From contig NZ_CP144913.1 in assembly GCF_037198315.1 (NCBI RefSeq), forward strand, positions 3,100,001 to 3,164,000: 64,000 nt of DNA, read 5' to 3'. The notes under the pieces are model-generated. The model was not told the DNA's origin, searched no databases, and worked only from the letters and a program-made list of their open reading frames with translations. This DNA comes from Janibacter sp. A1S7. GTDB taxonomy: Bacteria; Actinomycetota; Actinomycetes; Actinomycetales; Dermatophilaceae. Both the position numbers and the translations under genes were made by a program. Positions 17,301 to 39,006 of the stretch are shown here, piece after piece. Positions within the stretch are counted from its first letter, which is position 1, and each line of letters starts with the position of its first letter.

Positions 17301-17396
17301 GGAGGCGTCTGGGTTCCTGGTGGTCCCCCCGGTCTTCAACACCGGTGAGGCCGAGCATCTCGGTCTGGCGGGTTCGATTCCCGTCCGTCTCCGCCA
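17301..17396 (+). tRNA. selC: tRNA-Sec (anticodon UCA)
   Basis: The 93-nt tRNA plus encoded CCA (17394-17396) folds as a selenocysteine tRNA. The acceptor GGAGGCG pairs with CGTCTCC. The anticodon arm is CCGGT-CTTCAAC-ACCGG with TCA at 17336-17338. A long variable arm GGCCGAG-CAT-CTCGGTC follows, then T-arm GCGGG-TTCGATT-CCCGT and discriminator G. The long variable arm and UCA anticodon match only selC. A possible -10 element TATGGT lies about 7 nt upstream. It sits 85 bp upstream of selA. Confidence 0.95.
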
Positions 17397-21272: not shown

Positions 21273-21418
21273 GGCATGACTCTTTCGTCCAGGGCTCTGG
21301 TGAACCCGCGCTTGACGCGGCCGGTCGGCACGCGTCCAGGTCCTCACCCGGGGCACCCCACCGAGGGTGGAGGGTTGCCGCCCAGCCAGCCGGGGCTTCG
21401 CGCTGGGACTCATGACCA

Positions 21419-27846: not shown

Positions 27847-29319
27847 TCACATCTTGACGCCGATGTACTTCATCTCCAGGAACTCGTCGATCCCGACGAA
27901 ACCACCCTCGCGGCCGACACCGGACTCCTTGATCCCGCCGAAGGGCGCGGCCGGGTTGGACACGACCCCCATGTTGAGGCCGACCATGCCCGCCTCGAGC
28001 GCCCGGCTGACCCGGAAGCCCCGGTCCAAGCCCTGGGTGAAGACGTAGGAGACCAGACCGAAGGGGGTGTCGTTCGCCAGTGCGATCGCCTCCTCCTCGG
28101 TGTCGAACTCGCCGATCGCGGCGACCGGACCGAAGATCTCGGTGCTGGCGAGCTCGGCGTCGGCAGGGACCCCGGTGAGGACGGTGGCCGGGTAGAAGTA
28201 GCCCTCCCGGTCGGACGGCTCGCCCCCGAGTTGTGCCGTGGCACCGCGCGAGACGGCGTCGCGGACGAGCTCGTCGACCTTGTCGACCGCCCCCTGGTTG
28301 ACCAGCGGCCCGACGACGACGCCCTCCTCGACTCCTCGTCCCATCCCGAGCGCACCCATCCGCTCGGTGAGCCGACGGGAGAACTCCTCGGCGACCGGAC
28401 GCTGGACGAGGATCCGGTTGGCGGCCGTGCAGGCCTGGCCGATGTTGCGCATCTTGGCCAGCATCGCCCCCTCGACGGCGGCGTCGAGGTCCGCGTCGTC
28501 GAAGACGATGAAGGGGGCATTGCCACCGAGCTCCATCGACGTGCGCATGACCGTCTTCGCGGCGAGCTCGAGCAGGTGCTTGCCGACCGGGGTGGACCCG
28601 GTGAAGGAGAGCTTGCGCGAGCGGGGGTCGAGGATCAGCGGAGTCATCACGTCGTCGGTCTTGCTCGTCGTCACGACGTTGACCACGCCCTTGGGCAGGC
28701 CGGCCCGCTCGAGGATCTCGACGAGCGCGAGCGTCGACAGCGGCGTCTGCGAGGCCGGCTTGATCACCGAGGTGCATCCGGCCGCGATGGCCGGGCCGAT
28801 CTTGCGGGTACCCATGGCCATCGGGAAGTTCCACGGCGTGATGAGGATGCACGGACCGACCGGCTCCTTCGACACCAGGAAGCGTGACCCGCCGGCGGGC
28901 GCCGTCATGAACCCGCCGTCGATGCGCACGGCCTCCTCGGCGAACCACCGGAAGAACTCGGCTGCGTAGGTGACCTCACCGCGGGCCTCGGCCAGGGGCT
29001 TGCCCATCTCGAGGGTCATGATCAGCGCCAGCCGCTCACTCTCCTCGATGAGCAGGTCGTAGGCGCGGGTGAGGATCTCGCTGCGCTCCCGGGGCGCAGA
29101 CGCGGCCCACCCGGGTTGCGCCTCGACGGCGGCGTCCAGGGCGGCCGAGGCCTCCTGGGGAGTCGCGTCGGCGATCTCGCACAGGACCGTGCCGGTGGAC
29201 GGGTCGATGACCGGCAGCGTGGCGGCAGTCGGGCGCCACTCCCCCCCGATGAAGAGGCCGGTGGGAACCGACTCGATGGCCTCCCGCTCGCGGTCCTGCG
29301 TGATCTGGGTGTCCTGCAT
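27847..29319 (-). CDS. NAD(P)-dependent aldehyde dehydrogenase (succinate-semialdehyde dehydrogenase type)
   Basis: A 490-aa ALDH superfamily enzyme starts at ATG 29319 after a GAAGGAG site. The catalytic thiol is Cys297 (RNIGQACTAANRI) and the general base Glu263 (SMELGGNAPF). PWNFPMAMGTRKIGPAIAAGC and SFTGSTPVGKHLL complete the cofactor site. The length and blocks fit the GabD/SSADH group, which oxidises succinate semialdehyde or similar omega-semialdehydes. It is divergent from a class III aminotransferase, with a shared GntR-type operator between them, so the pair probably converts an omega-amine to a dicarboxylate. A longer upstream frame (to 29694) overlaps the divergent gene and is rejected. 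Confidence 0.92.
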   Translation of the reverse strand: MQDTQITQDREREAIESVPTGLFIGGEWRPTAATLPVIDPSTGTVLCEIADATPQEASAALDAAVEAQPGWAASAPRERSEILTRAYDLLIEESERLALIMTLEMGKPLAEARGEVTYAAEFFRWFAEEAVRIDGGFMTAPAGGSRFLVSKEPVGPCILITPWNFPMAMGTRKIGPAIAAGCTSVIKPASQTPLSTLALVEILERAGLPKGVVNVVTTSKTDDVMTPLILDPRSRKLSFTGSTPVGKHLLELAAKTVMRTSMELGGNAPFIVFDDADLDAAVEGAMLAKMRNIGQACTAANRILVQRPVAEEFSRRLTERMGALGMGRGVEEGVVVGPLVNQGAVDKVDELVRDAVSRGATAQLGGEPSDREGYFYPATVLTGVPADAELASTEIFGPVAAIGEFDTEEEAIALANDTPFGLVSYVFTQGLDRGFRVSRALEAGMVGLNMGVVSNPAAPFGGIKESGVGREGGFVGIDEFLEMKYIGVKM

Positions 29320-29367
29320 CGCCTGGCTCCTTCGTCGTGTCCTTGCCGTTGCCACCATCCTAGAAGT

Positions 29368-29386
29368 ATTGTCAACAATCAGACAA
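29368..29386. promoter_or_regulatory. GntR-type operator, site 1 (aldehyde dehydrogenase / aminotransferase)
   Basis: ATTGTCAACAAT (29368-29379) is a palindromic 12-mer (ATTGT-CA-ACAAT), and TTGTC-N8-GACAA spans 29369-29386. It sits between divergent starts at 29319 and 29405. The identical 12-mer recurs at 33799-33810, and the TTGTC-N8-GACAA form recurs at 33761-33778. This resembles the TNGTNNNACNA-type sites of FadR/FCD regulators, and a GntR/FCD gene lies in the cluster. Confidence 0.7.
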
Positions 29387-29404
29387 CCAATCTGGAGGTT
29401 ATCG

Positions 29405-30646
29405 ATGACAGCGCTGTCCCCCCTTCTCAAGCAGGCCACCCCCGTGACCGTCGACCACGCACTCGGTTGCGAGGTCTTCGACTCGGACGGTCGTCGCTTC
29501 CTCGACTTCACCGCCGGCATCGGCGTCGTGAGCACGGGCCACTGCCACCCGAAGGTCGTCGCCGCCGCGCAGGAGCAGGTCGGCAAGCTCATCCACGGCC
29601 AGTACACCACCGTGATGCACAAGCCACTGCTGGAGCTCGTCGAGAAGCTGGACGGGGTCCTGCCCTCGCACCTGAACTCGCTCTTCTTCGCCAACTCCGG
29701 CAGCGAGGCGCTGGAGGCATCGCTGCGCCTGAGCCGTCAGGCCACCGGCCGGCCCAACGTCATCGTCTTCCACGGCGGCTTCCACGGCCGCACGGTCGCG
29801 ACGGCGACGATGACGACGTCGGGCACCCGCTTCTCGGCGGGATTCAGCCCGCTCATGGGCGGGGTGCACGTCGCCCCCTTCCCCACCGCCTACCGCTACG
29901 GATGGACCGAGGAGGAGGCGACCCGCTTCGCCCTCCAGGAGCTGGACTTCATCTTCGCGACGCTCACCTCCCCGGAGGAGACCGCCGCCTTCGTGGTCGA
30001 GCCGATCCTCGGCGAAGGGGGCTACATCCCGGGCAACACCGCCTTCTTCCAGGGGCTGCGCGAGCGTGCCGACAAGCACGGCATCGTCCTGGTCATGGAC
30101 GAGGTCCAGGCGGGCTTCGGCCGCACCGGCAGGATGTTCGGCCACCAGCACTTCGACGTGCAGCCGGACGTCATCACCCTCGCCAAGGGCATCGCCTCCG
30201 GCTTCCCGATCTCCGGGATCGCCGCGACCGAGGAGCTCATGGCCAAGGCCTGGGCCGGCTCGCAGGGCGGCACCTACGGCGCCAACGCCGTGGCCTGCGC
30301 CGCCGCCGTCGCCACCCTCGGGGTCATCGAGGAGGAGGGGCTGGTCGCCAACGCCGCCGAGCGCGGCCACCAGCTGCTCGACGGGGCGAAGTCCGCAGCA
30401 GTCGACGGCGTCGGCGACGTGCGCGGCCTCGGGCTGCTCGTCGGCAGCGAGTTCACCACCGCCGACGGCCAGCCGGACGCCGAGCGCGCCAAGGCGGCTC
30501 AGCAGCTCGCGGCGACCAAGGGCCTGCTCCTGCTCACCTGCGGCGCGTACATGAACACCGTGCGGATGATCCCGCCGCTCGTGGTCACGGCCGAGCAGGT
30601 CGACGAGGCCCTGGGCATCTGGTCCGAGGTCCTGGCGGAGGTCTGA
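29405..30646 (+). CDS. Class III aminotransferase (4-aminobutyrate aminotransferase-like)
   Basis: A 413-aa PLP enzyme starts at ATG 29405 after GGAGG. The PLP lysine is Lys261 (DVITLAKGIASGFPIS), the cofactor Asp is in LVMDEVQAGFGRTG, and NSGSEALEASLRLSR binds the phosphate. The family moves amino groups from omega-amino acids, ornithine-type or 4-aminobutyrate-type donors to 2-oxoglutarate. Position opposite an SSADH-like gene suggests sequential amine-to-semialdehyde-to-acid oxidation. The DUF3830 gene follows one base after the stop, so they are co-transcribed. The true donor in this cluster is unknown; the GABA label is only the nearest family. Confidence 0.9.
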   Translation: MTALSPLLKQATPVTVDHALGCEVFDSDGRRFLDFTAGIGVVSTGHCHPKVVAAAQEQVGKLIHGQYTTVMHKPLLELVEKLDGVLPSHLNSLFFANSGSEALEASLRLSRQATGRPNVIVFHGGFHGRTVATATMTTSGTRFSAGFSPLMGGVHVAPFPTAYRYGWTEEEATRFALQELDFIFATLTSPEETAAFVVEPILGEGGYIPGNTAFFQGLRERADKHGIVLVMDEVQAGFGRTGRMFGHQHFDVQPDVITLAKGIASGFPISGIAATEELMAKAWAGSQGGTYGANAVACAAAVATLGVIEEEGLVANAAERGHQLLDGAKSAAVDGVGDVRGLGLLVGSEFTTADGQPDAERAKAAQQLAATKGLLLLTCGAYMNTVRMIPPLVVTAEQVDEALGIWSEVLAEV

Positions 30647-30647
30647 G

Positions 30648-31145
30648 ATGGCAGCCCGGTACGTCACGATCACGCTCGAGTCGCGGGGGGTGACCGCCCG
30701 GGCGCGCCTGCTCGATGACGAGGCGCCGCTGACCTGCGAGGCGGTGTGGCAGGCGCTGCCGACGGGCAGCGACGCCTTCCACGCCAAGTACGCGCGCAAC
30801 GAGGTCTACACGCTCGTCCCACGGATCACGGCGGCGCCACACCGGGAGAACCCGACGATCACCCCGATCCCGGGGGACGTGTGCCTCTTCGACTTCGAGC
30901 CGTGGGAGATCGGCAACCCCGCCTACGGGTACGACCCGGGGTCGACGGCGCACGCGGAGCAGGGCGCGACCGACCTGGCGATCTTCTACGGCCGCAACAA
31001 CCTGCTCATCAACGGCGACCTCGGTTGGGTACCCGGGTCGGTCTTCGCCACGATCGAGGAGGGCCTGCCCGAGATGGCCGAGGCCTGCAACGACCTGTGG
31101 CGCAACGGCTTCGCCGGGGAACGGCTGACCTTCGCGCGGGCCTGA
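30648..31145 (+). CDS. DUF3830 family protein
   Basis: A 165-aa protein starts at ATG 30648, one base after the aminotransferase stop. The blocks RYVTITLESRGVTARARLLDDEAPLTCEAVWQALP, NEVYTLVPRI and NPTITPIPGDVCLFDF fit the DUF3830 family, predicted to have a cyclophilin-like barrel. The function is unknown. From my knowledge of the family (no search was run), members tend to occur beside amidase and Asp/Glu-racemase-fold genes, as here, so a role in the same pathway is likely. No catalytic residues can be assigned. A perfect 20-bp hairpin terminator follows six bases later. Confidence 0.75.
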   Translation: MAARYVTITLESRGVTARARLLDDEAPLTCEAVWQALPTGSDAFHAKYARNEVYTLVPRITAAPHRENPTITPIPGDVCLFDFEPWEIGNPAYGYDPGSTAHAEQGATDLAIFYGRNNLLINGDLGWVPGSVFATIEEGLPEMAEACNDLWRNGFAGERLTFARA

Positions 31146-31150
31146 GCACA

Positions 31151-31195
31151 GCGAAGGGGGTGACCCGCCGGTGATCGGCGGGTCACCCCCTTCGC
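31151..31195 (+). terminator. Perfect 20-bp hairpin after DUF3830
   Basis: The arms 31151-31170 and 31176-31195 are exact reverse complements (GCGAAGGGGGTGACCCGCCG) with a GTGAT loop. It starts six bases after the stop and should end aminotransferase-DUF3830 transcription. No U-run is visible. The stem base is the CGAAGGGGG motif that is frequent across the window. Confidence 0.8.
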
Positions 31196-31269
31196 CATGC
31201 CGTGGGCCGGGCGGTGGCGAAGACCGGCAACGCCGGACGACGGGCAGCTCGGCCCCGGTACCCCGCGAT

Positions 31270-31311
31270 GGCCGGGAAACCTCGCGACGGCCGCGCCACA
31301 ACCCGGTCATG
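31270..31311. repeat. Second copy of the GGCCGGGAAACC-N20-CCCGGTCATG element
   Basis: GGCCGGGAAACC (31270-31281) and CCCGGTCATG (31302-31311) are separated by 20 nt, exactly as at 15475-15516, although the 20 nt differ. It lies in the 270-bp gap between two convergent operons, between two terminator hairpins. This suggests a small dispersed extragenic repeat. Confidence 0.45.
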
Positions 31312-31351
31312 GCTCGCCGGCCCGGCCACGACGGGACGTCCCGGTCCACCA

Positions 31352-31397
31352 CACGCTGATCGGCCCCGCTGCTCGTGCAGTGGGGCCGATCGGCGTG
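31352..31397 (-). terminator. Hairpin after the amidase gene
   Basis: CACGCTGATCGGCCCC (31352-31367) and GGGGCCGATCGGCGTG (31382-31397) match at 15 of 16 positions with a 14-nt loop. It lies 18 bp beyond the amidase stop on the minus strand, so it is the likely terminator of the hydroxyacid dehydrogenase-amidase operon. Confidence 0.65.
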
Positions 31398-31415
31398 GAG
31401 AGGACCGGCGTGCTG

Positions 31416-32786
31416 TCAGGTGGTCAGCAGCCACTCCACGAAGCGCGCGACGGCCAGGACGAGGTCGTCGGAGTGGCGCGGCCCGATGATCTGCAGCCCG
31501 ACCGGCAACCCCGCAGAGGTGGTGCCGACGGGGATGCTGATCGCCGGCTGCTGGGTCATGTTGAAGGGGTAGGTGAAGGGGGTCCAGTCCGCCCAGTGGG
31601 TCATCCCGCTCCCCGGCGGCACGTCGTGGCCGGCCTCGAAGGCCGGGATCGGCATCGTCGGCGTGATGAGCACGTTGTGCTCCTCGTGGAAGGCTCCCAT
31701 CGTGATGCCGAGCGCTGCGGCCACGGCACGCGCCTCGAAGACATCGACGGCGCTCGCCGCCTCGCCCACGTCCCACGCCTGTCCCAGGCCGGGGTCGATG
31801 GTCTCGCGAACGCCGGGCATGGTCCGCAGCAGGGTTGCCGCACTGGCGCCCCACAGGAGCTTGAAGGGCTCGAGCGGGTCCTCGAAGCCGGGGTCGACAG
31901 CCGTGACGGGCATCCCCGCTGCATCGATCCTCGCGACGACCTCGTCGCAGATCCGCCCGACCTCCTCGTCGACCGACACGTACCCGAGCGTCTTGGAGTA
32001 GGCCACCGGGAGCCCGGTGACCTCGCGGTTGAACTCCCCCCGGAAGGTCAGCCGCGGTGGGGCGAGCGCGGTCGGGTCGCGATGGTCGGGCAGCGAGATG
32101 ATGTCCATCAGCAGCGCCGCGTCCTCGACGGTGCGCGTCATCGGGCCGGCGTGCGCCAGCGGCCCGAAGGGGCTCGCCGGGTACATCGGGACCCGGCCGT
32201 GGGTTGGTTTGAAACCGACGATCCCGCAGAACGAGGCCGGGATGCGCACGCTGCCACCGGCGTCGGTGCCCACGCAAACCGGCCCCATCCCCGCGGCGAT
32301 CGCCGCCGAGGCTCCTCCCGAGGAGCCCCCGGCGGTCGTCCGGGGGTCGACGGGGTTGCGGGTGACCCCCGTCAGCGGCGAGTCGGTGACGCCCTTCCAC
32401 GCCAGCTCCGGTGTCGTGTTCTTCCCGACGAAGACCATCCCGTCGGCGCGCAGCCGTGCGGTGACGGGGGCATCGACCTCCCACGGCTGGTCGGGGTCGA
32501 TCGCCTTGGAACCACGCAGCGTCGGCCAGCCCTTGGTGAGGAAGATGTCCTTGATCGAGGTCGGCACACCGTCCAGCAGTCCCTGGGGCGTCCCGGCCTG
32601 CCAGCGCGCCTCGGAGGCACGCGCCTGCTCCAAGGCGCTCTCCCGGTCGACGAGGCAGAAGGCGTTGATCTCGCCGTCGGCCTCCTCGATGCGGTCGACG
32701 ACCGCATTGGTCGCCTCGACGGGCGAGAGCTCCTTCGCGCCGTAGGCGGCGACGAGCTCGACGGCGGTCATCTCGGTTGGGTTCAT
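31416..32786 (-). CDS. Amidase signature family hydrolase
   Basis: A 456-aa amidase-signature enzyme with the Ser-cisSer-Lys triad readable: Lys79 in TSIKDIFLTKG, the cis-Ser in TAGGSSGGASAAIAAGM (Ser155/156) and the nucleophile Ser179 in TDAGGSVRIPASFCG. It hydrolyses a carboxamide to acid plus ammonia. The C-terminal block ISIPVGTTSAGLPVGLQIIGP is the usual family ending. The start is three bases after the D-2-hydroxyacid dehydrogenase stop, so it is the second gene of that operon and comes under the same GntR-type operator. Unlike GatA, there is no gatB/gatC here, so it is a catabolic amidase; the amide is unknown. Confidence 0.9.
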   Translation of the reverse strand: MNPTEMTAVELVAAYGAKELSPVEATNAVVDRIEEADGEINAFCLVDRESALEQARASEARWQAGTPQGLLDGVPTSIKDIFLTKGWPTLRGSKAIDPDQPWEVDAPVTARLRADGMVFVGKNTTPELAWKGVTDSPLTGVTRNPVDPRTTAGGSSGGASAAIAAGMGPVCVGTDAGGSVRIPASFCGIVGFKPTHGRVPMYPASPFGPLAHAGPMTRTVEDAALLMDIISLPDHRDPTALAPPRLTFRGEFNREVTGLPVAYSKTLGYVSVDEEVGRICDEVVARIDAAGMPVTAVDPGFEDPLEPFKLLWGASAATLLRTMPGVRETIDPGLGQAWDVGEAASAVDVFEARAVAAALGITMGAFHEEHNVLITPTMPIPAFEAGHDVPPGSGMTHWADWTPFTYPFNMTQQPAISIPVGTTSAGLPVGLQIIGPRHSDDLVLAVARFVEWLLTT

Positions 32787-32789
32787 CTC

Positions 32790-33770
32790 TCAGCTCCCGG
32801 TGGTCGGAACGTAGCCCAGCGACGTGTCGACGACGTTGTCCAGCGAACGACCCTCGACCCAGCGCACGAAGTTCTCGGCGAAGAGATCGACCAGTGCGTC
32901 ACGCCAGCCGACGAAGTCGCCGGAGTTGTGTGGGGTGATCATGACGTTCGGCAGGGTCCACAGCGGGTGGTCCCCCGGCAGCGGCTCCGGGTCGACCACG
33001 TCGAGGGCGGCGCCGGCGATCTGCTCGGAGCGGAGGGCGTCGACCAGGTCACCGGTCCGCACCAGCTCGCCACGGCCGACGTTGACGAAGCGGGCGTGCG
33101 GCTGCATGGCGGCGAAGGCGTGCGCGTCGAACATCCCTGCGGTCTGGTCGGTCAACGGCGCGATCGCGACCACCCAGTCCGCCTGGCCGAGCGCCTCGTG
33201 GAGGTCCTCGGTGGCGCTGACGTCGCCGAAGTCCGGGTCGCCGGTCCGCTCCCTTCGCCCGGATCCCGACACCTCGAGGCCGGCGGCACGCAGGAGGCGC
33301 GCGACGGCCCGGCCGATCGGCCCGGTCCCGACGACGAGCGCGCGCGTCCCCGCGACCCGCTCCGACTCGCGGTGCTGCCAGGTGGCCTCGTCCTGCAGTC
33401 GCAGCGAGCGAGGCAGGTCCTTGGCGAAGGAGAGGACCTGGCCCAGGACGTACTCGGCGATCGCGTCGTCGAAGACGCCGCGGGAGTTGGTGATGACGAC
33501 GTCGCTCTCGCGCACCTCGGGCGTCATCAGCGGGTCCACCCCGGCTGCCGCGATGTGCACCCACTGCAGCGACCCGGCCGCGTGCCAGGCCTCGGCGAGC
33601 GCCGTGCTGAGGAAGTCGTAGGCGAAGACGACATCGGCGCCGTCCATCGCCTCGGCGAGCCCCGGGGCCTGCGTGAAGCGGACATCTGCCCGCTCGGTCA
33701 CCGGCGCGAGGGCGTCCACGGACGGGCGATTCTCGTTGTGGAGGACCACGACGACGGGCGTTGTCGACAT
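32790..33770 (-). CDS. D-2-hydroxyacid dehydrogenase, NAD-dependent
   Basis: A 326-aa enzyme of the D-isomer-specific hydroxyacid dehydrogenase family, interconverting a 2-keto acid and a D-2-hydroxy acid. The NAD fingerprint is VVGTGPIGRAVARLL (residues 147-160). The catalytic residues are Arg233 (NVGRGELV), Glu262 (DVVDPEPLP) and His281 (MITPHNSGD). The start codon ATG 33770 lies inside a TTGTC-N8-GACAA palindrome, so repressor binding would block both promoter and ribosome entry. It heads the operon with the amidase and is divergent from the maleate-isomerase-fold pair. The substrate is unknown. Confidence 0.91.
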   Translation of the reverse strand: MSTTPVVVVLHNENRPSVDALAPVTERADVRFTQAPGLAEAMDGADVVFAYDFLSTALAEAWHAAGSLQWVHIAAAGVDPLMTPEVRESDVVITNSRGVFDDAIAEYVLGQVLSFAKDLPRSLRLQDEATWQHRESERVAGTRALVVGTGPIGRAVARLLRAAGLEVSGSGRRERTGDPDFGDVSATEDLHEALGQADWVVAIAPLTDQTAGMFDAHAFAAMQPHARFVNVGRGELVRTGDLVDALRSEQIAGAALDVVDPEPLPGDHPLWTLPNVMITPHNSGDFVGWRDALVDLFAENFVRWVEGRSLDNVVDTSLGYVPTTGS

Positions 33771-33778
33771 GTTGACAA
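33761..33778. promoter_or_regulatory. GntR-type operator, site 2
   Basis: TTGTC (33761-33765), 8 nt, GACAA (33774-33778). The right half reads TGTTGACAA, the reverse complement of TTGTCAACA found in sites 1 and 3. It overlaps the start codon of the D-2-hydroxyacid dehydrogenase (33770-33768). Confidence 0.65.
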
Positions 33779-33798
33779 CCTAGGAGCCCGCTCCCTAG

Positions 33799-33817
33799 AT
33801 TGTCAACAATCCGGCAA
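33799..33817. promoter_or_regulatory. GntR-type operator, site 3
   Basis: ATTGTCAACAAT (33799-33810) is identical to site 1, and TTGTC-N8-GGCAA (33800-33817) keeps the spacing. It is about 30 bp upstream of the isomerase-isomerase-gntR operon start, so that operon is probably autoregulated. Confidence 0.7.
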
Positions 33818-33847
33818 TCTCGCTGCCCGATGAGAGAGGGGCCCTGC

Positions 33848-34600
33848 GTGGAGCTGACAGACGTCGAGTTCGAGGGGCCGTTGGCCCAACGCGGGATCGG
33901 CATCATCGCGCCCTTCGACCTCGCCCTGGAGCGGGAGCTGTGGCGCTGGGCGCCGCTCGAGGTCAGCTTCCACCTGGCGCGGACCCCCTTCGAACCCGTC
34001 TCGGTCAGCCTCGAGCAGGCCGAGCTCGTCTCCGGCAAGGAGCACCTGCAGAAGGCCACCCGCGACGTCCTCGGCGTCGACCCCGAGGTCGTGGCCTACC
34101 TGTGCACCTCGGGCAGCTTCATCCACGGACCGGAGTACGAGGCCTCGCTGCGCCAGGCGATCCTCGACGCCGGCGCCCCCATGGCGGTCACCACCTCCGG
34201 CGCCCTCATCGAGGCCGTCGAGAGGCTGGGCCCACGACGGATGTCGGTGGTCACCCCCTACGACCAGGAGCTGACCGACCGACTCGGCTCCTTTCTCGCC
34301 GCGCTGGACGTCGAGGTGATCCACTCGCACTACCTCGGCCTCGGCGGCGGCATCTGGCGGGTCAACTACCGCACCGTCGTCGAGCAGATCCTCGCCGCCG
34401 ACGACCCCCAGGCGGACGCCATCTTCGTCTCCTGCACCAACCTGCCGACCTACGACATCATCACGCCACTCGAGCGCGAGCTCGGCAAACCCGTGCTCAC
34501 CGCCAACCAGCTCACCGTCTGGGCCTGCCTCGGGCGGATGGGGCTGCCGATGGTCGGGCCCGGGAAGTGGTTGCGCGACGTCTTCCAGGAGGAGCCATGA
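33848..34600 (+). CDS. Maleate cis-trans isomerase / arylmalonate decarboxylase-fold protein, two-Cys form
   Basis: A 250-aa Asp/Glu-racemase-superfamily protein. Counting from GTG 33848, which follows a GAGAGGGG ribosome site, the two active-site cysteines are Cys86 (YLCTSGSFIHGP) and Cys196 (FVSCTNLPTYD). This is the two-thiol arrangement of maleate isomerases and racemases; arylmalonate decarboxylase has only the second. GKPVLTANQLTVWACL is the typical C-terminal block. It may isomerise, racemise or decarboxylate a small dicarboxylate-like acid. The stop overlaps the next gene by four bases (ATGA), and that gene encodes a paralogue, so a hetero-oligomer is possible. Confidence 0.87.
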   Translation: MELTDVEFEGPLAQRGIGIIAPFDLALERELWRWAPLEVSFHLARTPFEPVSVSLEQAELVSGKEHLQKATRDVLGVDPEVVAYLCTSGSFIHGPEYEASLRQAILDAGAPMAVTTSGALIEAVERLGPRRMSVVTPYDQELTDRLGSFLAALDVEVIHSHYLGLGGGIWRVNYRTVVEQILAADDPQADAIFVSCTNLPTYDIITPLERELGKPVLTANQLTVWACLGRMGLPMVGPGKWLRDVFQEEP

Positions 34601-35316
34601 GCCACACGATCGGCATGATCTATCCCGACCACGCGGCCGAGGACGAGTACCCGTGGGCCGCCGAGCTGCTGGGGGTCGACCTCCCTGTGGCGCACATCTA
34701 CGGCACCGACCTGCACGCGGTCCCCCAGCTGCTCGACCTGGGCAGTCCGGAGCGGCTCGCCGGGGGCGCCGAGGAGCTGTCCAGACACCACCCCGACGCG
34801 GTCGTGTGGGCCTGCACATCCGGCAGCTTCGTCTACGGCCCGAAGGGGGTCGAGAGCCAGATCGCGGCCCTCACCCATGCCGCCGGTGTGCCGGCGTCGA
34901 GCACGAGCGCGGCCTTCGTCGCGGCACTGGCCCACCTCGGGGTGTCGAGGGTCGCCGTCGCCGCCAGCTACCCGCAGGAGGTCGCCTCCCTCTTCGTCGA
35001 CTACCTCGACGCGAACGGCACCCGGGTGGTGGCCCTGTCGAGCGCGGGAATCGACACGGCGGCCGAGGTCGGCACCCTCACCCCCGAGCAGGTCGTCGAG
35101 CTCGCCGCGGCCAACGACCACCCCGACGCGCAGGCCCTGCTCGTGCCGGACACCGCGATGCACACCCTTGCGGTCATACCGGAGCTGGAGACCCGGCTCG
35201 GCAAGCCGGTGCTCACCGCCAACCAGGTGACGATCTGGCAGGGACTGCGGCTGGTCGGAGCGACCCCCTCGGCCCCGCAGCTCGGCGCCCTCTTCCGGAC
35301 GGAGGCAGGCTCATGA
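34597..35316 (+). CDS. Maleate isomerase-fold paralogue lacking the second catalytic Cys
   Basis: A 239-aa paralogue of the preceding protein, with the same closing block GKPVLTANQVTIWQGL. The first cysteine is kept (Cys73 in WACTSGSFVYGP), but the second position reads LLVPDTAMHTL, with Asp185 where the neighbour has Cys. A two-base mechanism using two thiols is therefore impossible in this chain. It could be a one-thiol enzyme with reversed stereochemical roles, a different lyase, or the structural partner of its neighbour. It overlaps the upstream and downstream genes by four bases each, so all three are co-translated. Confidence 0.85.
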   Translation: MSHTIGMIYPDHAAEDEYPWAAELLGVDLPVAHIYGTDLHAVPQLLDLGSPERLAGGAEELSRHHPDAVVWACTSGSFVYGPKGVESQIAALTHAAGVPASSTSAAFVAALAHLGVSRVAVAASYPQEVASLFVDYLDANGTRVVALSSAGIDTAAEVGTLTPEQVVELAAANDHPDAQALLVPDTAMHTLAVIPELETRLGKPVLTANQVTIWQGLRLVGATPSAPQLGALFRTEAGS

Positions 35317-35990
35317 CACTCGAGGACCTCAAGCCTGTCCGACGGCGCTCCACGGTCGAGCACATCGCCGGCGAGCTCCGTGCGGCGATCATGTCCGGTT
35401 CGCTCGAGCCGGGTGACCAGCTCGGTGAGGCCGACCTCGCCGAGCGCTTCTCCGTCTCGCGGGGCCCCCTGCGTGAGGCGATGCAACGGCTGGTGTCCGA
35501 GGGGGTGCTGGAGGCGATCGCCAACCGTGGCGTCTTCGTCGCCGAGCTGACCCTCGACGACGTCCGCGACGTCTACCGCACCCGCTCGGTCATCGAGCGC
35601 GGCGCGATCGAGGTCGTCCTCCGGCAGCGCCGTCGTGAGCAGCTGCACCGGGCCGTCCAGCCGAGCATCGCTCGGATGCGCCGCGCCGCCACCCGCGCAG
35701 ACGGGCCCGGGGTGTCGGACGCCGACCAGGCCTTCCACGAGGCGCTCGTCGAGTGCTCGCACAGCCCCCGGCTCATCCGTGCGATGCGCACGCTGCTCGT
35801 CGAGACCCGCCTGTGCCTGGGTGAGCTGCGCACCACGTACCCCGACCTGGACACCCAGGTCCACGAGCACGAGGCCCTCGCCCGCGCCTTCCTCGACGAC
35901 TCTCCCGCCGCGGTGAAGGCCGCGCTGCTCGCGCACCTCGACGACGCCGTCGACCGGCTCGTCACGAAGCGCACCGAGCCGGTCGACTGA
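35313..35990 (+). CDS. GntR family transcriptional regulator (FCD domain)
   Basis: A 225-aa regulator. The N-terminal winged helix is VEHIAGELRAAIMSGSLEPGDQLGEADLAERFSVSRGPLREAMQRLVSEGVLE (about residues 15-68). The C-terminal all-helical FCD domain follows, with metal-ligand candidates in DADQAFHEALVECS, HEHEALARAF and KAALLAHLDDAV. FCD regulators bind small carboxylic acids and repress catabolic operons through TNGTNNNACNA-like palindromes. Three matching sites lie before the two divergent promoter pairs in this cluster, so this protein is the obvious local regulator. It is the last gene of the isomerase operon. Confidence 0.93.
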   Translation: MTLEDLKPVRRRSTVEHIAGELRAAIMSGSLEPGDQLGEADLAERFSVSRGPLREAMQRLVSEGVLEAIANRGVFVAELTLDDVRDVYRTRSVIERGAIEVVLRQRRREQLHRAVQPSIARMRRAATRADGPGVSDADQAFHEALVECSHSPRLIRAMRTLLVETRLCLGELRTTYPDLDTQVHEHEALARAFLDDSPAAVKAALLAHLDDAVDRLVTKRTEPVD

Positions 35991-36655: not shown

Positions 36656-37936
36656 TCAGGGGACGGTGATCTCGGCCCCGGCGAGTCCGGCGTGGTTTGT
36701 CGATGCGATGACCCGACCGGTGTCGCGTGGCGAGACACCCATCCCCCGCCACTCGGCGAGCATGACGGCCACCTTGGAGCGCATCTCCGTCTTCAGCCGG
36801 GCGAAGGAGTCGTCCGGGTGGTCACCGACCTGCCCCTGGAGCAGCCACCAGGCCCATGCGGCCGCACCGGCGTTGGCGACGAAGTCGGGGATGACCGGGA
36901 CACCGTTGCCGATGAGCATCGCCTCGGCCTCGTAGGTGGTCGCCGCGTTGGCCGCCTCGACGACGACCTTCGCGGTGATCTCGGAGGCGTTCTCCTCGCG
37001 GATCGCGTACGAGATCGCCGCGGGGACGAAGATGTCGGCCCGGGCCGAGAGGACCGCCTCGCGCGGCAGCTGCTCGACGCCCTCGGGGATCCGCGCGCGG
37101 TCGATCTCGCCGTACTCGTCACGCAGCTCGAGCAGCGTCGGCACGTCCAGCCCCTCGGGGTCGGACAGGGTGCCGGCGGCGTCCGCGAGCGCCACGACCT
37201 TCACCCCTGCCTCGTGCAGGTAGAAGGCCGCGGCCCCGCCCATGGTGCCCACGCCCTGGATGGCGACGCTCGTCGTGCCGATCTCCCAGCCCAGGGAGTC
37301 GACGACACCGAGGCACGCCTCGGCGACACCGTAGCCACCGATGACCTCACCGAGCTGCAGGTCGTCGTCGGTTCGGGCGTCCATGCCGGCACGCACGCGC
37401 TGCAGGGTCTTGCTCGGTCGGGGCGAGCGCTCGATGGCTGCGTGGTAGGACTGACCGAGCCCGAGCCTGGCGAAGACCTCGTCGATGCGGGACTGCGCCA
37501 CACCGAGGTCCTCCGCGGTGACCCAGTGGCCGTCGAGCCACGGCAGCATCGCCGAGCAGAAGCGCTCGAGCACACCCACCGCTTCCGGGTCCCTGGGGTC
37601 GAAGTCGATGCCTCCCTTCGCCCCACCGACGGGCAGACCGAAGACGGCCGTCTTGGTGGCCATCCCCCGGGCGAGGTCACCGACCTCGGAGATCGTGCAC
37701 CCCGGCCGCATGCGGGTACCCCCGGTGGCGAGACCACCGACGAGGGTGTGCACGACGAGGTAGCCGCGGGCACCGGTGACCGGGTCGGTCCACGACACCT
37801 CGTGCGCCGGCGGGCCGTCGAGGAGGTCCGACCCGGGAGCGGTCTCGGTGGTCCACTCGATCTGCGGATCGTGCTGGCCGACGTACTGCTGCGTTTGCTT
37901 CGTCGAGTCCCAGTGCGGACTGTGCATGATCGTCAC
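36656..37936 (-). CDS. Glu/Leu/Phe/Val dehydrogenase family protein
   Basis: An amino acid dehydrogenase of about 426 aa, performing oxidative deamination with NAD(P). The catalytic lysine is in the block TAVFGLPVGGAKGGIDFDPRDP, and the Rossmann fingerprint is VAIQGVGTMGGAAAFYLHEAG. The end block AANAATTYEAEAMLIGNGVPVIPDFVANAGA fits the GDH group. I chose GTG 37936 because an AGAGG site lies 8 nt upstream; GTG 37945 and ATG 37927 are alternatives. It is divergent from a LysR regulator about 130 bp away, which probably controls it. Confidence 0.92.
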   Translation of the reverse strand: MTIMHSPHWDSTKQTQQYVGQHDPQIEWTTETAPGSDLLDGPPAHEVSWTDPVTGARGYLVVHTLVGGLATGGTRMRPGCTISEVGDLARGMATKTAVFGLPVGGAKGGIDFDPRDPEAVGVLERFCSAMLPWLDGHWVTAEDLGVAQSRIDEVFARLGLGQSYHAAIERSPRPSKTLQRVRAGMDARTDDDLQLGEVIGGYGVAEACLGVVDSLGWEIGTTSVAIQGVGTMGGAAAFYLHEAGVKVVALADAAGTLSDPEGLDVPTLLELRDEYGEIDRARIPEGVEQLPREAVLSARADIFVPAAISYAIREENASEITAKVVVEAANAATTYEAEAMLIGNGVPVIPDFVANAGAAAWAWWLLQGQVGDHPDDSFARLKTEMRSKVAVMLAEWRGMGVSPRDTGRVIASTNHAGLAGAEITVP

Positions 37937-38012
37937 GTCAACCACCTCTTTCTGCAGGTTCCTGTCCTCTCAGCGTGGGCCCGGCCGCAGCGGGGCGTCC
38001 AGCGCGTGAACC

Positions 38013-38028
38013 TGCACGATCATGTGCA
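38013..38028. promoter_or_regulatory. Inverted repeat between the dehydrogenase and LysR genes
   Basis: TGCAC (38013-38017) and GTGCA (38024-38028) form an inverted repeat, TGCAC-N6-GTGCA, in the gap between the divergent dehydrogenase (start about 37936) and lysR (38068). It has the size of a LysR recognition site (T-N11-A type). It lies 40 bp before the lysR start. Confidence 0.45.
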
Positions 38029-38067
38029 CTTCCCCTTAAACATGGGAATCACCCCTACATTGGGTCA

Positions 38068-39006
38068 ATGGAGTTGTCCTTGCGTCGGTTGCAGATGCTG
38101 CGCGAACTTCATCGCCGCGGCACGGTCACTGCTGCGGCGGCAGCACTCCACTACAGCCCGTCAGGGGTCTCCCAGCAGCTCGCCCAGCTCGAGCGGGAGG
38201 TCGGCGTCACCCTCGTCGAGCGCTTCGGCAGACGGGTCCAGCTGACCGACCTCGGGCTGGTGCTCCTCGAGCACGCCGAGGAGATCCTCGGCGCGGTCGA
38301 GCGCGCGACGACGGCCCTCGAGCAGGCCCAGGAGGGCGTCACCGCCAGGCTGACGGTCGGGGTGTGGGCCTCGGTGGCCGCCGGCCTGCTGCCCCGCTCC
38401 CTGACCACGCTGGCGGCCAACCACCCGGGGATCGAGGTGCACACGACCGAGCTGGTCCCCGAGCAGAGCGCCGCCGCGGTTCTGGAGGGGAAGTTCGACG
38501 CCGCCTTCGTCATCGACTACTCGGACCACGAGATGGACTGGGACCCGAGCCTGACCCGGACCGTGGTCGCCGTGGAGCGGCTGCACGCAGCCGTCCCCGC
38601 GGAGACGCTGCTCGGCGACACCGTCTCCCTGCTCCAGCTGGCGGACCACCCGTGGATCCTGTCCGGTCCGCGCTCGCACTTCGGTCGGGCGGTGCGCATC
38701 GCCTGCCACAAGCAGGGTTTCGCGCCGCGGATCGCGCACACGGTCGAGGAGCAGCCGACGGCGCTGGCCCTGGCGGCCGCCGGTCTCGGGGTCACCCTCG
38801 TCTCGGACCTCGCGCTGGCCATGAAGCCGGAGGGAGTGGACATCGTCGCCCTGGACAAGCCGGTGATGCGCACGATCTCGCTCGCCCACCGCGCGTCCTC
38901 GGCACCGCGACGCTCGATCGACCTCTTCATCGACGCGGTGCGCACCACGGCGGCCGAGCAGGGACTCGGGGCCAGCACCTCGCTACCGCTGGCCGCGAGC
39001 GACTGA
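38068..39006 (+). CDS. LysR family transcriptional regulator
   Basis: A 312-aa regulator starts at ATG 38068. The N-terminal HTH is MELSLRRLQMLRELHRRGTVTAAAAALHYSPSGVSQQLAQLEREVGVTLVER (1-53), followed by the helical linker and a two-lobe effector domain (TVGVWASVAAGLLPRSLTTL; ALALAAAGLGVTLVSDLAL). It is divergent from the amino acid dehydrogenase, the usual layout for a LysR regulating its neighbour, so an amino-acid-related inducer is likely but not shown. A longer in-frame extension from 37975 has no ribosome site. Confidence 0.93.
   Translation: MELSLRRLQMLRELHRRGTVTAAAAALHYSPSGVSQQLAQLEREVGVTLVERFGRRVQLTDLGLVLLEHAEEILGAVERATTALEQAQEGVTARLTVGVWASVAAGLLPRSLTTLAANHPGIEVHTTELVPEQSAAAVLEGKFDAAFVIDYSDHEMDWDPSLTRTVVAVERLHAAVPAETLLGDTVSLLQLADHPWILSGPRSHFGRAVRIACHKQGFAPRIAHTVEEQPTALALAAAGLGVTLVSDLALAMKPEGVDIVALDKPVMRTISLAHRASSAPRRSIDLFIDAVRTTAAEQGLGASTSLPLAASD

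Follow-up and report, generated by a model that had tools for sequence, protein, structure and literature searches.

Which compound is broken down by a compact, regulator-bearing set of catabolic genes without a transporter of its own is the question raised by positions 27,847 to 35,990 of the window analyzed here, a stretch of 64,000 nucleotides from the actinobacterium Janibacter sp. A1S7 (contig NZ_CP144913.1, positions 3,100,001 to 3,164,000 of the forward strand), whose genome consists of one contig of 3.36 Mb. A first-pass annotation, made from the letters of the window, had described eight genes under one GntR-type regulator, named maleamate, N-carbamoyl and amide-bearing amino acids or malonates as substrates to try and matched the set to no named pathway. 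From gene content, conservation and genomic associations, we infer substrate and chemistry alike: the block likely serves the breakdown of an osmolyte of the ectoine type (ectoine, 5-hydroxyectoine or both), under the control of a GntR/FCD regulator.

All eight open reading frames (ORFs) and their family assignments were upheld by Pfam and NCBIfam, and no transporter gene lies within the block. The genes are arranged around two divergent promoter regions, P1 and P2. On one side of P1 lies a gene for an aldehyde dehydrogenase of the succinate-semialdehyde dehydrogenase type (Ssd/DoeC-like; 27847..29319, minus strand; PF00171, 536.6 bits); on the other lie genes for a class III aminotransferase of the 4-aminobutyrate/diaminobutyrate type (Atf/DoeD-like by role; 29405..30646, plus strand; PF00202, 371.2 bits) and for DUF3830, a protein with a cyclophilin-like fold (30648..31145, plus strand) that is a candidate for ring opening or imine handling. 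P2 separates two minus-strand genes, encoding a D-2-hydroxyacid dehydrogenase (32790..33770; PF02826/PF00389) and an amidase-signature hydrolase that is a candidate deacetylase (31416..32786; PF01425, 339.5 bits), from three plus-strand genes. The latter encode two paralogues with the fold of arylmalonate decarboxylase and EutA, namely ISO1 (33830..34600; PF17645, 91.9 bits), which has both catalytic-position cysteines, and ISO2 (34597..35316; PF17645, 103.4 bits), in which the second cysteine is replaced (Pro-Asp-Thr motif), and a GntR-family regulator with an FCD domain (35313..35990; PF00392 and PF07729), the presumed reader of both operators described below. ATG/TGA overlaps at 34597-34600 (ISO1/ISO2) and 35313-35316 (ISO2/gntR) suggest translational coupling. 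Judged by eye, the true start of ISO1 may be the GTG at 33848 instead of the ATG at 33830, and the DUF3830 and amidase genes, which converge, have between them a long inverted repeat (31153..31196) that is probably a shared terminator.

Both promoter regions carry the operator palindrome ATTGTCAACAAT, located by sequence search at 29368..29379 in P1 and at 33799..33810 in P2. Exact copies of ATTGTCAACAATC occur twice in the 3.36-Mb genome, and both lie at these divergent promoters (window positions 29368 and 33799). One additional genomic site appears with one mismatch; at up to two mismatches, the window holds three matches versus 0.10 expected, two of the three being one site on both strands. 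To place these sites in a wider context, we used 80 related loci, hereafter the named loci, which are the best 80 of at least 570 confirmed candidates found with a DUF3830 alignment. The core TTGTNNACAA was present in all 64 testable P1 regions and in all 64 testable P2 regions of these loci, with one locus whose second half is inverted (L035) set aside for the P2 count. Together, the 1.48 Mb of the named loci contain 148 core sites; five first-order Markov simulations yielded between 1 and 4 each. Within the A1S7 genome, the short core TTGTNNACAA alone is weak evidence because it occurs at 12 places versus 7 for a reversed-pattern control. Ten cores outside the block were considered as marks of further regulon members and rejected: only that at 1818631 keeps the outer A and T, with a different centre, and three (L111, L113 and L119) fall inside long ORFs according to the ORF lists. 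The block’s own GntR/FCD protein presumably reads the palindrome at both promoters, and the earlier idea that all eight genes apparently form a single regulon is strengthened by these operator data.

As the best-scoring 80 were taken, close relatives are favored among the named loci (Janibacter, Georgenia, Occultella, Rhodococcus, Nocardia, Hoyosella and Yaniella); Janibacter supplied the best named DUF3830 relatives among the matches listed. All eight genes were found within the stretch in 51 of the 80 loci, 50 of them with the order and orientation of the window. Many of the other 29, but not all, are cut by contig ends or by the 10-kb flank. The aldehyde dehydrogenase gene is missing beside the aminotransferase gene in 14 named loci despite more than 7 kb left upstream (L033, L038, L044, L047, L051, L059, L074, L077, L079, L085, L088, L094, L096 and L098), and the amidase-to-gntR half is missing in five despite a full 10 kb downstream (L039, L052, L063, L065 and L067). 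Genes inserted between the halves of the block, listed for 12 loci, were tried as a guide to its function and abandoned, as those seen vary by genus without a common partner; two Hoyosella loci (L041 and L081) have three inserted gene families in common. Separately, the halves in Nocardia sp. CDC159 (L058:11140-17867) are split by genes read by eye as encoding a PucR regulator, DUF917, a hydantoinase A-type protein and a cytosine-permease-like transporter.

Beyond the close relatives, DUF3830 was detected in 24 of 117 relatives and in 43 of 396 genomes sampled across the phylum; both counts include the A1S7 genome. A distant set comprised 35 stretches around DUF3830 matches in other genomes, 27 with a full-length protein (L148-L174) and eight with a short or divergent one (L175-L182). 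Among the 27, L153, L156 and L174 duplicate the DNA of named loci L069, L088 and L072, which leaves 24 new ones. When matches down to 30% identity were accepted, all eight families were present in nine of the 27 distant loci, five to seven in 16, four in L157 and two in L163; the weakest matches are perhaps not orthologues (aminotransferase at 32-34% in L158-L161; aldehyde dehydrogenase at 36-37% in L157, L162, L164 and L165). Gene order is frequently shuffled among these loci with the partners retained, which favors functional coupling over mere descent of one stretch. An operator core occurs somewhere in the stretch in 21 of the 27, and none was seen in the stretches of L149, L151, L154, L155, L161 and L163, of which L161 does contain a gntR gene. 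The eight stretches with short or divergent DUF3830 contained no other core genes, except for weak GntR matches in L178, a locus with three DUF3830 copies in a row. The eight genes of the block behave as one co-inherited unit, and the single-pathway reading of the first-pass annotation survived the co-conservation check that it had proposed.

A likely substrate is suggested by what accompanies the block in relatives. Ehu and MHS genes were located by similarity with queries from L151 and L150, and BCCT genes were tested in three stretches. By these means, 13 of the 27 distant loci were found to carry an importer: Ehu genes in six (L149, L151, L154, L155, L163 and L164), a ProP-like MHS carrier in four (L148, L150, L152 and L158) and BCCT in all three stretches tested (L159-L161). 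Beside the block in L151, EhuB (277.1 bits), EhuC (223 bits), EhuD (279.2 bits) and EhuA (357.1 bits) all exceed the NCBIfam equivalog cut-offs; in L164, EhuA lies above its cut-off and EhuC below. An operator core precedes the MHS gene in L158; in L159 and L160, it stands where the BCCT reading frames begin, between these and a divergent gene of the Glu dehydrogenase family. In L226, from the same genome as L157, the end of an amidase gene, an MHS gene, gntR, ISO2, ISO1, a RidA-family gene and ehuADCB lie together, with operator cores before MHS (2223), between gntR and ISO2 (3216), before ISO1 (4937) and before ehuB (8653). ISO1 adjoins ehuBC in L228, from the same genome as L163. In the 80 named loci, the screen covered Ehu, MHS, M24, M20 and class I aminotransferase genes only; the sole locus with ehu genes is L097 (Nocardia pseudovaccinii), which carries them downstream of its genes for aldehyde dehydrogenase and tartrate dehydrogenase. 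All seven genomes found with EhuB over the cut-off and no DUF3830 were also inspected, and five of them, Streptomyces-like by inferred genus, have ISO2 beside Ehu, with the hydroxyacid dehydrogenase in four of the five.

Plasmid homologues gave a mixed picture. The best ISO1 homologue (41%, Sinorhizobium sp. CCBAU 05631) is accompanied by ehuD, ehuA and two ehuB genes and by genes for a diaminobutyrate transaminase, an aldehyde dehydrogenase, an amidohydrolase and an oxidoreductase 29% identical to the hydroxyacid dehydrogenase of the block. ehuBCDA is also present in the next distinct context (Bradyrhizobium), where a hypothetical protein encoded beside Ehu matched no Pfam family. Three further homologues (H10, H11 and H16) were discarded as ectoine markers, having hydantoinase, UbiD and Xaa-Pro peptidase genes as neighbors; because of these differing contexts, ISO1 homology alone does not mean ectoine. 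The incomplete gene table of another homologue, H35, contained no ectoine genes, and the one DUF3830 plasmid match, H1, lacks the block.

We then considered the ligand pocket of EhuB, using positions given in the accessible text of PMC6915088 and transferred via alignment to 2q88, in which the column of the last Glu is alignment-dependent. All eight block-adjacent EhuB proteins tested (L097, L149, L151, L154, L155, L164, L226 and L228) keep the Glu, the three aromatics, the Arg and the aligned Glu. The aromatics are likewise kept in the Streptomyces-like L229-L232, with Gln for the last Glu in two. Ala or Ser occupies the third aromatic position in L233 and in five unlinked EhuB proteins (L223, L224, L225, L234 and L235), that of A1S7 included.

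Co-occurrence across genomes points in the same direction. The bearer set comprised 45 genomes, 40 with full-length DUF3830 (the fragmentary G015 and short-form genomes being left out) and five with named loci; it was set against the 39 non-bearers listed individually in the DUF3830 searches, and neither set is random. EhuB exceeded its cut-off in 29 of 45 bearers versus seven of 39 non-bearers, and ectoine synthase (EctC) was present in 36 bearers and 12 non-bearers (counted by genus, 12 of 20 and eight of 29). The A1S7 genome itself encodes ectoine synthase (179.6 bits). EutD/DoeA (TIGR02993) reached its cut-off of 613 in none of the 45 bearers, and EutE/DoeB (TIGR02994) was matched in five at 77-98 bits and in none above its cut-off of 402.7. 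DoeA-like M24 proteins scoring 391-434 bits, versus the cut-off of 613, occur in seven bearers. In these (L157, L166-L169, L172 and L173), the M24 gene lies in the block region together with M20 deacylase-family and class I aminotransferase genes, the trio sitting between ISO1 and ISO2 in four of the seven; a class III aminotransferase gene was not seen in the stretch in six of them, where the stretch edges may hide it. A threo-3-hydroxy-L-aspartate ammonia-lyase gene adjoins DUF3830 in L169, and in 29 Nocardia loci the aldehyde dehydrogenase gene has a neighbor of the tartrate dehydrogenase family.

The enzymes of the block were examined for family membership and catalytic residues. The aldehyde dehydrogenase scores 570 bits against TIGR01780, under its cut-off of 646.35, and, across a 466-residue alignment, shares 50% identity with Leisingera Ssd; its identity to two other aldehyde dehydrogenases is 36% and 33%. 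These values are consistent with an Ssd/DoeC-type protein at the level of the same broad family. The aminotransferase shares 31% identity with Leisingera Atf and 31% with a Sinorhizobium diaminobutyrate transaminase; its nearest solved structures are gamma-aminobutyrate (GABA) aminotransferases. The amidase exceeds the cut-off of NF004815 (728.8 versus 506 bits), a model named only ‘amidase’. Its Lys-Ser-Ser triad (Ser-cisSer-Lys) is retained in 68 of 68 named loci and in 24 of 25 distant ones, with one Arg for Lys, and the Arg-Glu-His positions of the hydroxyacid dehydrogenase are retained without exception (67 named loci and 25 distant ones). ISO1 has both catalytic-position cysteines of two-cysteine Asp/Glu racemase-fold enzymes in 65 of 66 named loci (L081 is cut by the stretch end) and in 25 of 25 distant ones. 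ISO2 keeps the first Cys and has Pro-Asp-Thr where the second would stand; this holds for 64 of 65 named loci and for 23 of 25 distant ones, the exceptions being L042 (a 32% match), L168 and L169, in whose stretches no separate ISO2 gene was found. ISO1 and ISO2 are not equivalent, ISO2 lacking the second catalytic-position cysteine. For both, the best-scoring NCBIfam model is EutA (TIGR02990; 104.5 bits for ISO1 and 118.6 bits for ISO2). DUF3830 has 1,943 clustered homologues at E ≤ 0.001, and its predicted model (mean predicted local distance difference test score of 72, from 17 sequences) supports matches at the level of fold only. Neither DUF3830 nor this gene set was recognized as the subject of any paper in the literature searched, most subscription papers lying outside its reach.

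A route can be proposed from these parts. An ectoine-type molecule would be imported, or the cell’s own ectoine used. Because the A1S7 genome lacks a match to EutD or EutE, the amidase and DUF3830 are candidates for ring opening and deacetylation; in place of EutD and EutE, they would open the cyclic amidine and deacetylate the product, either enzyme serving either step and in either order. The aminotransferase would then convert the terminal amine to a semialdehyde, which the aldehyde dehydrogenase would oxidize to aspartate or hydroxyaspartate, and the hydroxyacid dehydrogenase and the two EutA-fold proteins would handle a hydroxy/keto branch and its stereochemistry. More tentatively, and as a possibility that we hold somewhat short of belief, Actinomycetota may have a widespread EutD- and EutE-independent route for ectoine and 5-hydroxyectoine in which DUF3830 opens the amidine, the amidase deacetylates, ISO1, ISO2 and the D-2-hydroxyacid dehydrogenase process the hydroxylated branch and the GntR/FCD protein acts as repressor. 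The same enzymes might alternatively act in another order: the ring would open to gamma-N-acetyl-diaminobutyrate (gamma-ADABA), followed by transamination at C2, reduction by the hydroxyacid dehydrogenase and deacetylation by the amidase, and terminal transamination and oxidation would yield D-malate, with only the isomerase-fold pair and DUF3830 left to place. Tartrate dehydrogenase-family enzymes are known D-malate oxidants.

Several observations weigh against an ectoine-type substrate. In the A1S7 genome, neither EutD/DoeA (TIGR02993) nor EutE/DoeB (TIGR02994) had a match, and both ISO1 and ISO2 fall far below the EutA cut-off of 318; the aminotransferase, for its part, is only 31% identical to Atf. 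The Fisher tests for the EhuB and EctC associations (P ~2e-5 and ~7e-6, respectively) ignore kinship, and nine of the 45 bearers lack EctC. No importer gene of these kinds was found in the stretch in 14 of 27 distant loci, and no Ehu or MHS gene, the two importer types screened there, in 79 of 80 named loci; the cargo of the ProP-like and BCCT carriers is left open by scores below their equivalog cut-offs. Four of the loci with adjacent Ehu genes (L149, L151, L154 and L155) are without gntR, aminotransferase, aldehyde dehydrogenase and operator in the stretch; two EhuB-positive non-bearers (L234 and L235) have no block genes beside Ehu, and three of the five plasmid contexts of ISO1 homologues have no Ehu. 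The importer of A1S7 itself is likewise in doubt. Its EhuB barely passes the cut-off (191.0 versus 190.9 bits) and has Ser at the third cage aromatic, and this altered pocket makes its Ehu a weak importer candidate; the genes lie ~0.55 Mb from the block, if the contig is circular, unlinked and without the operator. A ProP-like importer in this genome was rejected, the best match reaching only 32 bits.

One rival reading is that the block degrades another nitrogenous osmolyte or an acetylated diamino acid, also carried by Ehu-like, ProP-like and BCCT transporters, with ectoine merely a structural analogue. The transporters linked to the block come from three unrelated families, the ProP-like and BCCT members score under their equivalog cut-offs, EutD is over its cut-off in no bearer and ectoine synthase is missing in a fifth of them (nine of 45). 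We nevertheless regard such a substrate as unlikely, given the ectoine pocket kept in all eight block-adjacent EhuB proteins tested, the excess of ectoine synthase among bearers and the DoeA-like gene in seven of them. A different possibility, which is a variant of the ectoine reading and not exclusive of it, is that the cell recycles its own ectoine after salt stress and needs no importer. The ectoine synthase of A1S7, the restriction of the exact operator to the block and the unlinked Ehu with its altered pocket fit this variant, which is rather doubtful in view of the importers linked to the block in several relatives, operator-bearing in L226, and of the bearers without ectoine synthase. 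The least probable of the alternatives, and distinctly so, is a pathway for amides or for malonate/maleate that has no name and no relation to ectoine. Both EutA-fold proteins do match the arylmalonate decarboxylase Pfam model and solved maleate isomerases, and the amidase model names no substrate; however, with 77.4 bits (ISO1) and 105.9 bits (ISO2), both stay below the cut-off of 225 for the NCBIfam arylmalonate decarboxylase model (NF052327), and the transporter, operator and ectoine-synthase associations also speak against it. A maleamate/maleate pathway was set low because the relatives carry osmolyte importers and both isomerase-fold proteins miss the decarboxylase cut-off. An osmolyte fits better than maleamate or malonates because block relatives carry Ehu, ProP-like or BCCT transporters.

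Outside the block proper, a gene of the Glu/Leu/Phe/Val dehydrogenase family (36656..37945, minus strand; Pfam) is a possible accessory, for example in glutamate recycling. A homologue with 52% identity adjoins the block in L158, where an operator core lies just upstream; the motif scan of the window found no operator at the window’s own copy. In Janibacter and Georgenia loci among L026-L029, this dehydrogenase gene and a divergent regulator-like gene (37975-39006, plus strand) are again neighbors of the block. Elsewhere in the window are a selenocysteine transfer RNA gene (17301-17396, plus strand; ARAGORN and Rfam RF01852) and a SAM-IV riboswitch (21303-21417, minus strand; 106 bits).

Ectoines are common salt-stress protectants and a source of dissolved nitrogen. 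If the ectoine reading is true, part of ectoine turnover could run via actinobacteria, by a route that EutD searches miss, and both DUF3830 and the unexplained EutA step would gain a testable role. Novelty lies in a gene set without EutD and EutE, in its regulator, in the pairing of DUF3830 with an amidase and in the two unequal EutA-fold proteins.

Among known systems, the closest is the eut/doe ectoine cluster of Ruegeria, Sinorhizobium and Halomonas, of which an annotated Leisingera copy (L236) was available for comparison. A class III aminotransferase, a succinate-semialdehyde-type dehydrogenase and an EutA-fold protein are parts of this cluster too and stand beside doeA and doeB in Leisingera; linkage to Ehu is also seen, for the block in some of its relatives. 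The first-pass annotation holds as to a single co-conserved block with shared operators and fails where it saw no known pathway, and its remark that the Eut cluster lacks the partners of the block is wrong for two of them, as the Leisingera cluster shows. In contrast to eut/doe, the A1S7 genome has no EutD/DoeA or EutE/DoeB match, the regulator is of the GntR/FCD type instead of the MocR-type EnuR (GntR with an aminotransferase-like domain), and the block has, in addition, DUF3830, the amidase and a further EutA-fold paralogue that lacks the second cysteine. EutB and EutC are not in the block, no genome-wide search having been made for them. The block appears to resemble the eut/doe pathway in its working and is not classed as a member, because EutD, EutE and, within the block, EnuR were not found and the EutA cut-off was not reached. 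A hydroxyacid dehydrogenase gene (hdhD) is among the unexplained genes of some ectoine clusters according to a figure legend in a 2018 review, the accessible text of which confines ectoine consumers to Proteobacteria (PMC5924519). In the accessible parts of two other papers, the precise activities of EutABC are called uncertain (2021), and a regulon study (2016) describes the MocR-type ectoine regulator EutR and cites the AsnC/Lrp regulator DoeX in Halomonas. Gram-positive ectoine clusters, found via EutD and EutB searches, are called provisional in the text available from a 2026 paper (PMC13188858). As far as that text goes, these clusters share with the block the proposal of ectoine catabolism in Actinomycetota, amidohydrolase and aldehyde dehydrogenase partners and, in some, Ehu or BCCT; they differ in their EutD- and EutB-based discovery and in the PucR-type regulator in Bacillota. 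Without EutD, the block would not be expected to surface in searches of that style. With the arylmalonate decarboxylase/maleate isomerase family, the EutA-fold proteins have in common the family itself and, in ISO1, the two active-site cysteine positions, and they differ in scoring under the NCBIfam decarboxylase cut-off and, for ISO2, in the missing second cysteine. The Pictet-Spenglerases McbB and KslB resemble DUF3830 in fold only, at 17-20% identity and in one domain of a larger chain.

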